In this document: one piece after another, positions 9,225 to 44,912 of the stretch
How the letters are laid out: every line of letters starts with the position of its first letter
Position numbering within the stretch: position 1 is the stretch's first letter
Source of the DNA: Atopobiaceae bacterium
GTDB taxonomy: Bacteria > Actinomycetota > Coriobacteriia > Coriobacteriales > Atopobiaceae
Direction of reading: 5' to 3'
Length of the DNA: 64,000 nt
Assembly (NCBI GenBank): GCA_017941705.1
Contig: JAGAVX010000146.1
Coordinates: 1-64,000, forward strand
The notes under the pieces: generated by a model
What the model was told of the DNA's origin: nothing
Database searches by the model: none
Seen by the model: the letters and a program-made list of their open reading frames with translations, nothing else
Translations under genes and position numbers: made by a program

Positions 9225-9689
9225 CTACACCGCCAGGGCGTAGGTCAGCTTGCGTATGTTGTGGCTCATGGCCACCATCCGCATCTCGTGGTCGACCTTC
9301 TCGAGGCCCCTCAGGAGGAACCGCCTGAAGCCCCAGTTGCGCTTGATGTCGCCGAATATGGTCTCGACGTCCACGGACCTCCGCCTCCCGAGCGCCGACC
9401 CTCGCTCGGCGCGCAGCATCTCCGACGCCCTCCTCTTGAACGCGTCGAGGGTGGGGTTCACGCGCAGGACGCGCACGGCGTCGGGGTCCTTGGCCCTGAA
9501 GCACTTCTTCCTGAGCGGACACCCCGGGCAGCCCTCGCCCACGTACGCCCTGGTCACGGACTCGTGGCCCAGCTTGGACCTGGTCCTCCTCTCGCCCGAG
9601 AACGAGAGCGTCCGGCCGCCGGGGCAGGAGTAGGTGTCGGACTCCCCGTCGTATGCCCAGTTGGCGGACGAGGGCCGTTCAAATCGACC
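9225..9689 (-). pseudogene. IS1182-family transposase, C-terminal remnant
   Basis: About 150 codons at the end of a DDE transposase. A cysteine cluster (GCPGCPLRKKCF) is followed by the C-terminal block containing the conserved Glu (VDVETIFGDIKRNWGF, then RRFLLRGLEKV and the ending IRKLTYALAV). The frame can be traced back to about 9675 (NWAYDGESDTYSCPGG) and then meets a stop at 9690-9692, so the N-terminal two thirds, with the first two catalytic Asp residues, are missing. One IS end seems to survive near 9129. The break point abuts the start of a McrB-like fragment on the other strand, suggesting the element inserted into or recombined with that gene. Confidence 0.85.
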
Positions 9690-9946
9690 TCACTGACGTC
9701 TCCACCCACGAGCCGAAAGGTGCGGAGCCCTGGTTCGACGAGGGACGCCTGAGGAGGCTGATCGGGCTCTACAAGGCAGACTTCGGGAGGTTCCGGGGCG
9801 ACGGCGCCCCGAAGGGTGACCAGGAGTCATACAAGTGGGACCGCGTCGCAAACTACCAGGAGAACTGGGACATCGACGCGGACGATTTCTCCAGCCAAGC
9901 GATAGCGGTCCTCAAGCCGGCGGCGCAGGGGATGGGGCAGCTTTCC
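9671..9946 (+). pseudogene. McrB-type restriction protein, N-terminal region, first fragment
   Basis: The plus frame from 9671 encodes a recognisable soluble segment (WFDEGRLRRLIGLYKADF, then ESYKWDRVANYQENWDIDAD and FSSQAIAVLKPAAQGMGQL). From memory this resembles the region that precedes the AAA+ GTPase of McrB-like type IV restriction proteins. It has no convincing start: the transposase remnant abuts it on the left. On the right it stops at a REP-like motif (9945) and the reading then becomes unrelated. The missing continuation appears 2.9 kb away at 12832 on the same strand and in matching order. Alternative: a stand-alone uncharacterised protein of the same fold. Confidence 0.65.
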
Positions 9947-9975
9947 GAACAACGGTGCCTGTCCCAGTTGTATGG
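9945..9975. repeat. REP-like short palindrome at the left junction of the interrupted gene
   Basis: CCGAACAACGGTGCCTGTCC followed by CAGTTGTATGG. It matches the copy at 12801-12831 in all but a few bases of its right arm (TTGTATGG here, TTGTTCGG there). It marks the point where the McrB-like reading frame is lost. Confidence 0.75.
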
Positions 9976-10101
9976 GTGCGAAAGCGGGGCGCCGTGGGAC
10001 CTGAAGTACTGGATTATCCATGCCGGCGCCGCCTGGCCGTAGCCCTTGCACTGCTCGTGCTGGTCGATTGCTGCCCTCTGTCTCCGTTGTTAGAAACCCT
10101 G

Positions 10102-12465
10102 TCAGGCCTCTGGCTCGGCCTGGGCCGGGTCAGGCTGAGCCTCGACCTCAGTCGCGGGCGCGGGCGTTGGCTCGGGCTGGGAAACGGGTTCAGGCTGAGC
10201 CTCGACCTCAGTCACGGGCGCGGGCGTCGGTTCGGGTTGGGAAACGGGTTCAGGCTGAGCCCCGACCTCAATTGCAGGCGCGGGCTCCGTCCCTGGCTCT
10301 GATGCGGGCTCGACCTCATCCTCAAGGTCATGGGCGGCCTCGGCTTGTGTGCCCGTCGTCGTGGCTTCCGACAGCGAAATCCCCTGTTGCCCTGACTGCT
10401 CGTTGCTTGAATCCGCGGTCCTCACCCCCAGCGTATCTGGATCGGACTTTCCGCCGCCAATTGCAGCCGTGTCGCTCTTTACGGTAGAAGGAATCAACTC
10501 GTAGGAATCGATGATCTTCAAATAGTCTGAGGAATCCTGCTTGTTTTGGTCGAGCAGCGTCGTATACCGCTTGCTAAAGTCCTCAAGGATGGATCCGGTG
10601 GGATGTTCACCCTCTGGCAGATTGTTATCCAGATAGAGGAGGTAGTTGAGCAGCGTGGTCACGAACGACAGCGATTCGCTGTCGCCCCTATACATGCCAT
10701 CGGATCCCTGCTCACCCTTTATGAACAGGTCTTCGAACGATGCGGCGTCCTTGTAGAGGGGCTTTCCGTTGCTGTCGTTGGGCGAGATCGTTGCAATGAG
10801 GGAGTCCAATGTATCGTCCTCGTGCATCCATTTGAGCAGGTTGTCAAGGCCTCCGCGAAGCCTGTTGGAGTCCACGGTCGTCACGCCGTCCACGACCTTG
10901 ACCGACGATTCGTTGTTGTATGCATAGCGCGATGCGAGCTCACACAGGTAGAGGGTCGCGAGGTAGCCCGTCACATAGTTTGAACGCTCTGTGTCGATTG
11001 TGCCTCCATCGGAATCCTTTCCGCCTTCGGAGAACCCAATGTCGTTGTACATAAACCGACCGTCGTTGAAGTACCCGCCAACGTAGGTGTCGATGAGCAG
11101 TGCTGTCGTGTATGTTGAGTTGAGTTCTCCTGTGCCAAACCTGCCGTCATCGCCCTGCAGCCTGCGAAGGTCTTGGAACGCCTGGTTGCGGTACGTATAG
11201 ACTTGCTCGACAGCGCTGGCGCTGCCCTCAATGAACCAGGAAGGGAACCTGAGTGCAAGATAGCGCTTCTCGGCCTCTTCGGAGATGAGATCGCCTTTTG
11301 CATCCGTGCGAAGGTCATCGAGATTGGTGGCACCAGCCATGCCGGCGCGATTGTAGTCGTGCATGAGTGTTTGGAAGAGCTCGCGCACGATTGTGTTTTG
11401 GAAGGTCTCCATTGCCTGGCCCTCACGAATAATTGAGCATTTTCCATTAATGGGATTTAGTATGGGATTGCCATCATCGTTTTTCTTCAGAAGACTGTCG
11501 ATGTTCACAGCAAGCATGTAGCAGTACTTGAGCTCGCCATCATCAGTCTCTTTGGCACGGGCAGTTACATACGCGAGGGTGTCGTCCGTGTCCTCGTGTT
11601 CTTCGGCACCGTCCTTGTCTCCCTTTTTGTAAAAGACGTACAGGCTGATTTCCTTGCCAATCTCGTCACACATTGCGGCGGCGTCGAAGGCCGGGAATTT
11701 GTCGAGCAGGAGGTTTACCGCTTGCGGCTCTAGGTGGTCGATGATGAGCTCAACGAGCCATTCGAGGTCCTCGTCGGAAAGGTCGTCGCGTGCCGTCTGT
11801 GCGCAGTGCATATCGACGAGCGTTCTTTCATTGCCAACTTCGTGTGCCATGTCGCTGGTTGCATGCCGTTCCGGCGCAGCGACGGGGAGGTCGGCTTGTG
11901 CGATCGCAGTCTCGGTCTGCGCGGCCATTTCTTCGATTGCAGGTTGCGGGGATGCCTCCTCGCGCTGGGCTTTCACAAACAGGTCTCTGAGCGAGCCGGG
12001 AAGAATGTACGTGATGTCAGTGGCTGCGTCGTAGACCGATATGATCTCGTGGGTTTCAAACAACTCAGAAAGTGAGTCTGAGAGGGTAACGGTGAACACA
12101 TCCTCTGCCAGTGCGTAGCCTTGTGGCACATAGAAGGCGAGAACTGGGAGATAGGTTTGACCTTCGACTGCCACGTCGCTGTCGATTTGAAGGCCGTCAC
12201 GTACCCACATAACGGGAATCTCCCAGTTGGCGTCGTTCTCGGCGACAACGACGGCGTTCTGGTCGAGCTCGATGCCAGCGGTGGGCCTGTCTACGCCGTC
12301 GATTGTGATGTCACGGAGGACCATGGTCTGGTCGGTTTGCATCGTGTGGTTTTCCAACTCAACCGTGCGCTCCGTGGCTAGCGCGACAAAGGGCAGAATC
12401 CCTTGCAGCGTGAGCGCAAGTGTAACGGAGGTGGCCAGCAGCTTGTTGAGTCTTGTTTGCTTCAT
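10102..12465 (-). CDS. Secreted gluzincin-like protein with degenerate zinc motif and Pro/Glu-rich tail repeats
   Basis: A 787-residue secreted protein. The start at 12465 has GAAAGGG upstream and begins a Sec signal peptide (KLLATSVTLALTLQGILPFV, cleavage near ALA-TE). Residues about 355-430 resemble a peptidase-MA/gluzincin domain: an amphipathic helix followed by MHDYNRAGM and later WFIEGSASAVEQVYTYR. At the HExxH position the sequence reads RELFQ (11371-11385), so both zinc histidines are replaced while Glu is kept. The C terminus is about two and a half copies of a 22-residue Pro/Glu repeat (EVEAQPEPVSQPEPTPAP). No LPXTG motif is seen. It lies inside the disrupted McrB-like gene and looks less GC-rich than its neighbours, consistent with acquisition. 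Likely a non-catalytic surface protein. Confidence 0.8.
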   Translation of the reverse strand: MKQTRLNKLLATSVTLALTLQGILPFVALATERTVELENHTMQTDQTMVLRDITIDGVDRPTAGIELDQNAVVVAENDANWEIPVMWVRDGLQIDSDVAVEGQTYLPVLAFYVPQGYALAEDVFTVTLSDSLSELFETHEIISVYDAATDITYILPGSLRDLFVKAQREEASPQPAIEEMAAQTETAIAQADLPVAAPERHATSDMAHEVGNERTLVDMHCAQTARDDLSDEDLEWLVELIIDHLEPQAVNLLLDKFPAFDAAAMCDEIGKEISLYVFYKKGDKDGAEEHEDTDDTLAYVTARAKETDDGELKYCYMLAVNIDSLLKKNDDGNPILNPINGKCSIIREGQAMETFQNTIVRELFQTLMHDYNRAGMAGATNLDDLRTDAKGDLISEEAEKRYLALRFPSWFIEGSASAVEQVYTYRNQAFQDLRRLQGDDGRFGTGELNSTYTTALLIDTYVGGYFNDGRFMYNDIGFSEGGKDSDGGTIDTERSNYVTGYLATLYLCELASRYAYNNESSVKVVDGVTTVDSNRLRGGLDNLLKWMHEDDTLDSLIATISPNDSNGKPLYKDAASFEDLFIKGEQGSDGMYRGDSESLSFVTTLLNYLLYLDNNLPEGEHPTGSILEDFSKRYTTLLDQNKQDSSDYLKIIDSYELIPSTVKSDTAAIGGGKSDPDTLGVRTADSSNEQSGQQGISLSEATTTGTQAEAAHDLEDEVEPASEPGTEPAPAIEVGAQPEPVSQPEPTPAPVTEVEAQPEPVSQPEPTPAPATEVEAQPDPAQAEPEA

Positions 12466-12751
12466 GGCATGCCCTTTCAGAGTGTGGATGCATACATCAT
12501 ACCTGTGCAAACATGCCGAAAAGCAGGCGACACGGAGATTCGGTGTCATATCGCGTCTCCTCGGCTCCTCGAAGCAGGGGACGATTCGCGCGACGCATAT
12601 CGATCTTGAGAGGTATATCAGCCGAGTTCAGGTGTCGCGGCAGCTAGATTGAGAGGTCGTCAGCACGAAGGTGTGGTCGTTTGCCCATCGTCGGAGTACC
12701 CTCGGCGATGGTTCGTGCGGCTCTACGCCAACCTACCGCGAGCGCGGTTGC

Positions 12752-12831
12752 CGCGTGCGTTGGGGGGTGCCCCCTAACGCACGCGTATCGCACAACGGAC
12801 CCGAACAACGGTGCCTGTCCCACTTGTTCGG
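12752..12831. repeat. Two adjacent REP-like palindromes at the right junction
   Basis: The first hairpin has perfect 10-base arms CGCGTGCGTT (12752-12761) and AACGCACGCG (12776-12785). The second has perfect 8-base arms CCGAACAA (12801-12808) and TTGTTCGG (12824-12831) around CGGTGCCTGTCCCAC. The second is nearly identical to the copy at 9945. The rest of 12466-12751 holds no recognisable gene; it contains the promoter side of the minus-strand secreted protein. Confidence 0.8.
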
Positions 12832-13275
12832 ATTTTCTAGGAAGCGGCCACGAGTACTCATTCGACCGTCTGGCGAAGCTGCTCGACTTCGACCAGGAGG
12901 GCGTCCGCGGCGCTTTCAGGGCCCTGTACGACACGGACTCCGATGTCGCGGCTTCATACGGGACCTTCTCTGGGCTGGTGGACGACCTGGTGAGGCGATA
13001 CAACGAGTCCTCCGGCAGCACGATGGACGACGCGTACCAGAACGCCAGGGCGGCCAGCGTCTACCTGTTCTTCAGGTACCCCGAGCGGTACCACTACTAC
13101 AAACCTACGGTCGCCGACTCCCTCTGCGCCGCCGTCGGGAGCGTGCTGCCGAGCGACCCGGCGGAGAGGTTCGTCGCCTACGAGGCGCTCTGCGACGCCA
13201 TGATGCCGGCCGTGCTGTCGGACAAGGACCTCGTCGCCCTGAGCGACTCCGTGCTCGACGGGCGCCAGCTGGCCG
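12832..13275 (+). pseudogene. McrB-type restriction protein, N-terminal region, second fragment
   Basis: The plus frame resumes protein-like sequence immediately after the palindrome: FLGSGHEYSFDRLAKLLDF, then GAFRALYDTDSDVAASYG, ARAASVYLFFRYPERYHYY and SDKDLVALSDSVLDGRQL. This continues the 9671 fragment without obvious loss (GMGQL joined to LGSGHEY), as in McrB-like proteins where a FRYPE-type motif follows the WDIDADDF motif. After about 13275 the similarity ends and no AAA+ GTPase domain follows, so the gene is also truncated on the right. There is no start codon or ribosome site here, so it is probably not expressed as a functional protein. Confidence 0.65.
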
Positions 13276-13420
13276 CAGTCGGCAGTCGCGCTGACGTCAC
13301 CCAAAGCGGGATGTGGGAGGGGCCTGCGACGGTGTGCGAGGCTTGCCCGCAGGGAGACCGAAGAGGATCAGAACTTGTTCGGGTTGGGGTGACGGGGCGC
13401 CGATCGTCGCTCGGCGGGGC

Positions 13421-13458
13421 GGAAAAGAAAAAGGAGCAGGGCAATCTAGCCCTGCTCC
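13421..13458 (-). terminator. Rho-independent terminator of the tRNA-Glu gene
   Basis: On the minus strand GGAGCAGGGC pairs with GCCCTGCTCC across a six-base loop (13433-13458), followed by TTTTTCTTTTCC. It lies about 60 bases after the tRNA 3 prime end. Confidence 0.9.
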
Positions 13459-13516: not shown

Positions 13517-13590
13517 TGGTGCCCCCAGCGGGAGTCGAACCCGCCTCTTAACCTTGAAAGGGTTACGTCCTAACCGATAGACGATGGGGA
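13517..13590 (-). tRNA. tRNA-Glu (anticodon TTC)
   Basis: On the minus strand the sequence starts TCCCCATCG and ends with an encoded CCA. The anticodon loop CTTTCAA sits between AACC and GGTT stems, giving TTC. The T arm GCGGGTTCGACTCCCGC is intact. A strong terminator follows. Confidence 0.97.
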
Positions 13591-13628
13591 CTATTGCGAA
13601 CAAACAGTATAACAGACCGGGAGAGCCG

Positions 13629-44881: not shown

Positions 44882-44912
44882 GCGTGCACTGGTGCCTGTC
44901 CCCAATGCACGG
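44882..44912. repeat. REP-like short palindrome, GGTGCCTGTCC family
   Basis: GCGTGCACTGGTGCCTGTCC then CCAATGCACGGC: the arms GTGCA/TGCAC and TGG/CCA pair around the GGTGCCTGTCC core. It lies 12 bases after the rnfB stop. Near-identical copy at 45561. Confidence 0.75.

Follow-up and report, generated by a model that had tools for sequence, protein, structure and literature searches.

Recombination and insertion at REP sequences, and their cleavage by RAYTs, are already known (PMC1525189, PMC8266576, PMC3116915, PMC6006769). The locus described here lies in the window, a 64,000-nucleotide stretch of contig C73 from the draft genome of an Atopobiaceae bacterium (2.81 Mb, 171 contigs, 96.65% complete), and compares with three described systems. 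With REP/BIME/REPIN elements and their RAYTs it shares short palindromic units, which in this genus occur mostly as head-to-head doublets in species-specific families, with RAYTs beside their own REPs. Unlike that system, the locus has two same-orientation singlets with a foreign gene between them, set in the relic of a protein-coding gene. As in REP-REP recombination, a chromosomal segment appears to have been exchanged at imperfect REP repeats; in the cases cited in PMC1525189, the F' plasmid F'128 arose by recombination of imperfect Rep sequences, and REPs are found at lambda-bio junctions. Those cases are within E. coli, whereas the present block holds a single gene and has a history of recent transfer between species. 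With the IS200/IS605 single-strand transposons the locus shares same-orientation hairpins near both ends and the absence of a target duplication, although the insert carries no Y1 transposase of its own. A literature search of limited reach found no description of REPs in this bacterial group.

An McrB relic and its insertion

An earlier note, made from the DNA letters alone, had read two same-strand fragments as one split McrB-like gene. This reading was borne out, with the bounds shifted to 9943 and 12837, as the joined pieces aligned to two intact McrBs (77% and 46% identity) with no gap at the junction. Homology of the left piece starts at 9671 or 9686 and ends at 9943, bases 12832-12836 belong to the insert and not to McrB, and a single McrB reading frame consists of 9671-9943 and 12837-13276 interrupted by 2,893 bp. 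McrB of a sister species (G010) matched both plus-strand pieces with 77% identity over query residues 4-238; at the DNA level the match ends at 9942 and restarts at 12837, the corresponding G010 bases being 4736 and 4738. From the gapless junction it follows that the insert is 2,893 bp long, with zero target bases lost and a duplication of at most 2 bp (TT). Homologues have the uninterrupted locus that the note had proposed to look for. The features of the locus are as follows.

9225-9670, minus strand: DDE (IS1182-type) transposase relic (Pfam DDE_Tnp_1_6, E=2.5e-23 for the ORF at 9225-9557)
9671-9943, plus strand: McrB relic, left piece (residues ~335-423 of the 1118-aa G010 McrB)
9944-12836, no strand: insert of 2,893 bp, its limits given by the flanks, which when joined match two intact McrBs with no gap
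9944-9980, plus strand: left REP unit TCCGAACAACGGTGCCTGTCCCAGTTGTATGGGTGCG, its right part common to genome G007 from base 9950
9950-12609, no strand: block shared with G007 (contig C268), ~98% identical outside indels
10105-12465, minus strand: cargo gene, 787-aa predicted exported protein of a zincin-like family, Sec-type signal peptide
12752-12785, no strand: hairpin with arms CGTGCGTTGGGG that looks like a remnant of the own REP family, within the insert and upstream of the cargo gene
12800-12836, plus strand: right REP unit CCGAACAACGGTGCCTGTCCCACTTGTTCGGATTTT
12837-13276, plus strand: McrB relic, right piece (residues ~424-572 of G010 McrB)
13281-13421, no strand: 140-bp intergenic repeat, 86% identical to G011 C9, right boundary of the McrB relic

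While the McrB homology stood, the description of the target as a gene had to be narrowed. The remnant covers residues ~335-572 of ~1118 and is missing the N-terminal third and the GTPase domain, and a search across its own genome found no other piece of the remaining McrB sequence anywhere. It has neither the GTP-binding AAA domain nor the McrC partner of a functional McrB; the intact G010 mcrB sits between an HsdR-type gene and mcrC. The McrB of the window is a dead internal relic. Since both pieces still have an open frame and dN/dS relative to G010 comes to ~0.18, its decay is not old, and mcrB could have been truncated already before the insertion or only now. On its left the relic is cut off by the DDE transposase relic, and the two relics together have an ABC transporter operon on one side and a tRNA-Glu gene (13517-13591) on the other. 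Full or partial copies of the 140-bp repeat on its right occur with 81-93% identity in several other genomes of the genus.

The terminal repeats and the RAYT genes

The near-identical motif which the earlier note had seen at both breaks proved to be a genuine repeat of the REP/REPIN families. An identical 22 bp, CCGAACAACGGTGCCTGTCCCA, is present in the same orientation at both insert ends (9945-9966 and 12801-12822), and the longer stretch of shared end motif matches at 26 of 27 positions. The right copy is a good palindrome with arms of 8-9 bp and the left copy an imperfect one; both are singlets. With zero mismatches the 22-mer has exactly two sites in the 2.81-Mb genome, and these are the two junctions. 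With up to 3 mismatches the same genome has 3 sites, the third (3-mismatch) belonging to another family, compared with 34 sites in G002, 32 in G006 (sister species) and few in others, while a reversed control pattern gave almost no matches in G002 or G006. For the core GGTGCCTGTCCC the window has 6 occurrences where 0.01 would be expected. Head-to-head inverted doublets, the REPIN/BIME arrangement, accounted for 61 of 67 units inspected in relatives. High copy number in relatives, the doublets and the RAYT-linked sister families together place the motif in the REP world.

GT[AG]G was not found at the hairpin foot. Most units of the relatives have GTAG in their head arm, CCGTAGTTCGG, where the window copies have GTTG, and RAYT classes 2.6 and 3 have been reported with non-GTAG repeats (PMC6006769). 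A search of viral contigs found no CCGAAC REP. When a REPIN site was compared between genomes, the equivalent intergenic spot held a different REPIN in G002 and none obvious in G003. The REP family of the source genome itself shares the core, CGTGCANNGGTGCCTGTCCCCAATGCACG, but not the stem, and often forms 33-bp tandem arrays. This family was seen on C26, C166, C122, C145, C100 and other contigs, sometimes at or near contig ends, and within the window at 44891, 45572 and 60099. Several genomes in the genus seem to have REP stems of their own.

Y1_Tnp proteins were detected in 14 of 18 genomes of the genus, with one in the source genome (NF047646 E=8e-17, under the curated cut-off of that model; Pfam Y1_Tnp above cut-off), which has three own-family REP units 110-190 bp upstream of its start. 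The G013 RAYT has REPs on both sides which share this core but have yet another, third stem, and several G002 and G006 RAYTs adjoin other long palindromes. The main rival to the route preferred below, which we consider somewhat unlikely, is that a RAYT (TnpAREP, an IS200/IS605-related transposase of the HuH-Y1 type) treated the directly oriented REPs as left and right ends, cut there and inserted REP-cargo-REP in single-stranded form into mcrB. Terminal REPs of one orientation, a duplication of at most 2 bp and zero target loss are what an insertion of IS200/IS605 type would give, Y1_Tnp proteins are widespread in the genus, with REPs of its own family upstream of the one in this genome, and E. 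coli TnpAREP cuts and rejoins REPs in vitro (PMC8266576). However, this sole RAYT adjoins a REP family of different stem, and specificity of TnpAREPs for the REP family that belongs to them has been reported (PMC6006769). The genomes of the genus yielded no RAYT with CCGAAC REPs on its flanks, although sister families with the same core have one (own genome, G013). We also found no description of gene movement by TnpAREP, and what moves is thought to be the inverted doublet (PMC3116915). Insertion between two CT dinucleotides, where the E. coli TnpAREP cleaves, was considered separately; it would need a codon to have been lost, and the gapless alignment lends that no support.

The cargo gene and its copy in a second species

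As the earlier note had stated, the gene in the insert is a minus-strand gene for a protein of 787 residues with predicted export. Seven more distant homologues show the family pattern HExxH...WFIEG. At residues ~361-366 the cargo protein, here and in G007, has RELFQ instead of HExxH with both histidines lost, so it does not carry the HExxH motif of a metallopeptidase. A flagellinolysin match was weak (E=3.6e-5, far below cut-off), a PDB profile search with the protein returned nothing, and the predicted structure (pLDDT 36) was too poor to use. No transposase match was obtained for this one long gene of the insert. The tail of the protein is rich in proline and glutamate, and is encoded by three in-frame 60-bp tandem repeats (10127-10306), and this region is shorter by 60 bp in the copy of G007. 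Among named organisms, relatives of the cargo gene were seen in an uncultured Coriobacteriaceae bacterium (RUG11201) and in an Atopobiaceae bacterium from sheep jejunum (RGIG5870); a search of plasmids, phages and viral contigs found no match.

Between the source genome and G007 the cargo gene has dN 0.021 and dS 0.016 (dN/dS ~1.3), whereas dS is 0.59, 0.99 and 1.20 for three further genes of this genome pair. This difference is strong evidence that the block was transferred recently between species. A dN/dS near 1 suggests that the cargo is under weak constraint. Homology with G007 begins inside the left REP core and stops 190 bp before the right REP, and that 190 bp includes the hairpin relic resembling the own family. 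In G007 one end of the block abuts GGGACACTTCTGCCGGAGGCATTTGTCCC, which has 41 matches in that genome and at most 1 per genome elsewhere in the genus (3-mismatch), and the opposite end abuts ATTTCAAAAGGGTATCGCCCCTTTGAAAT, with 20 matches, in G007 only. REP-type repeats are thus at 4 of 4 outer junctions of the block, over two species and three families. The idea that the cargo would be found between similar palindromes elsewhere was met in part, since the G007 copy does lie between REPs but of two other families, and none of the seven more distant loci has such REPs at both ends; a routine location of cargo homologues between REPs was rejected on this count. When the G007 downstream neighbor gene was sought in the source genome, only weak paralogue-like matches were obtained. 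The G007 neighbor aminotransferase is represented on C26, a contig ending in a REP array ~290 bp past the matching region.

Recombination at REP units

The earlier note had proposed that REP-like elements act as insertion or recombination sites which move a cargo gene. Its first part fits well, as it is very probable that the REPs were insertion points in some way, and the block did move recently. The reading that we prefer, with a probability of about one half, is that a secreted-protein gene block was acquired horizontally and placed, by way of REP units, in a relic of mcrB that was decaying, by recombination of a REP within the relic with the REPs bounding the block, for instance via a circular intermediate. 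The REPs would then be the points of exchange, a REP would have been present in mcrB already, and the exchange would be RecA-independent or would have used short homology. We favored this route because experiments provide a precedent for it and because it accounts for the same 22 bp at either end with no need of a transposase. Speaking for it are the two exact family copies that are the junctions, the gapless empty site, the low dS of the cargo and the REP ends in G007. Against it, 22 bp is short for homologous recombination, the homology falls 190 bp short at the right REP, and no genome was found with an mcrB bearing a lone REP. When the halves of the two REPs were swapped in silico, the DNA hairpins improved to -10.4 and -12.0 kcal/mol from the present -9.4 and -8.4 kcal/mol, as would be expected, weakly, if the present copies are reciprocal recombinants. 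The left unit, unswapped, is one base off a normal G006 REPIN half, which makes this test a weak one.

The REPs might instead be merely fragile or permissive sites, where hairpin breakage or gyrase-linked illegitimate joining let incoming DNA in, or might have been added later beside fresh junctions. REPs are intergenic targets of insertion sequences and recombination (PMC1525189) and REPINs insert beside existing REPINs (PMC3116915), but illegitimate joining usually costs target bases and none was lost here, and the same 22 bp at both ends, with no further exact copy in the genome, would need to be a coincidence. We consider such an origin quite unlikely. Both the source genome and G007 are fragmented draft assemblies, and several of the 171 contigs end in or near REP arrays, which would allow a contig to be misjoined through the 22-bp repeat. 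An artefact of this kind is nevertheless very improbable, as an exact repeat of just 22 bp is shorter than the k-mers with which assemblies usually finish, a difference of ~2% from the G007 copy shows that the block is not a stray piece of that genome, and a misjoin would still require REPs flanking the cargo on both sides.

A secreted-protein gene that passed recently between two gut-type Coriobacteria and lies between REPs in both suggests that REPs are docking points for moving single genes. A wider proposal, that REPs are interchangeable end sites between which RAYTs or REP-REP exchange pick up and insert genes across species, so that REP-rich genomes trade single genes without a dedicated mobile element, seems unlikely. 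Our literature search, of limited reach, found no description of a single gene that was transferred recently and is bounded in two species by REPs of different families. For the question of what REPs and their domesticated transposases do in the cell, a recent, datable transfer whose junctions all lie on REPs, in two species and three families, makes REP-guided gene capture testable.
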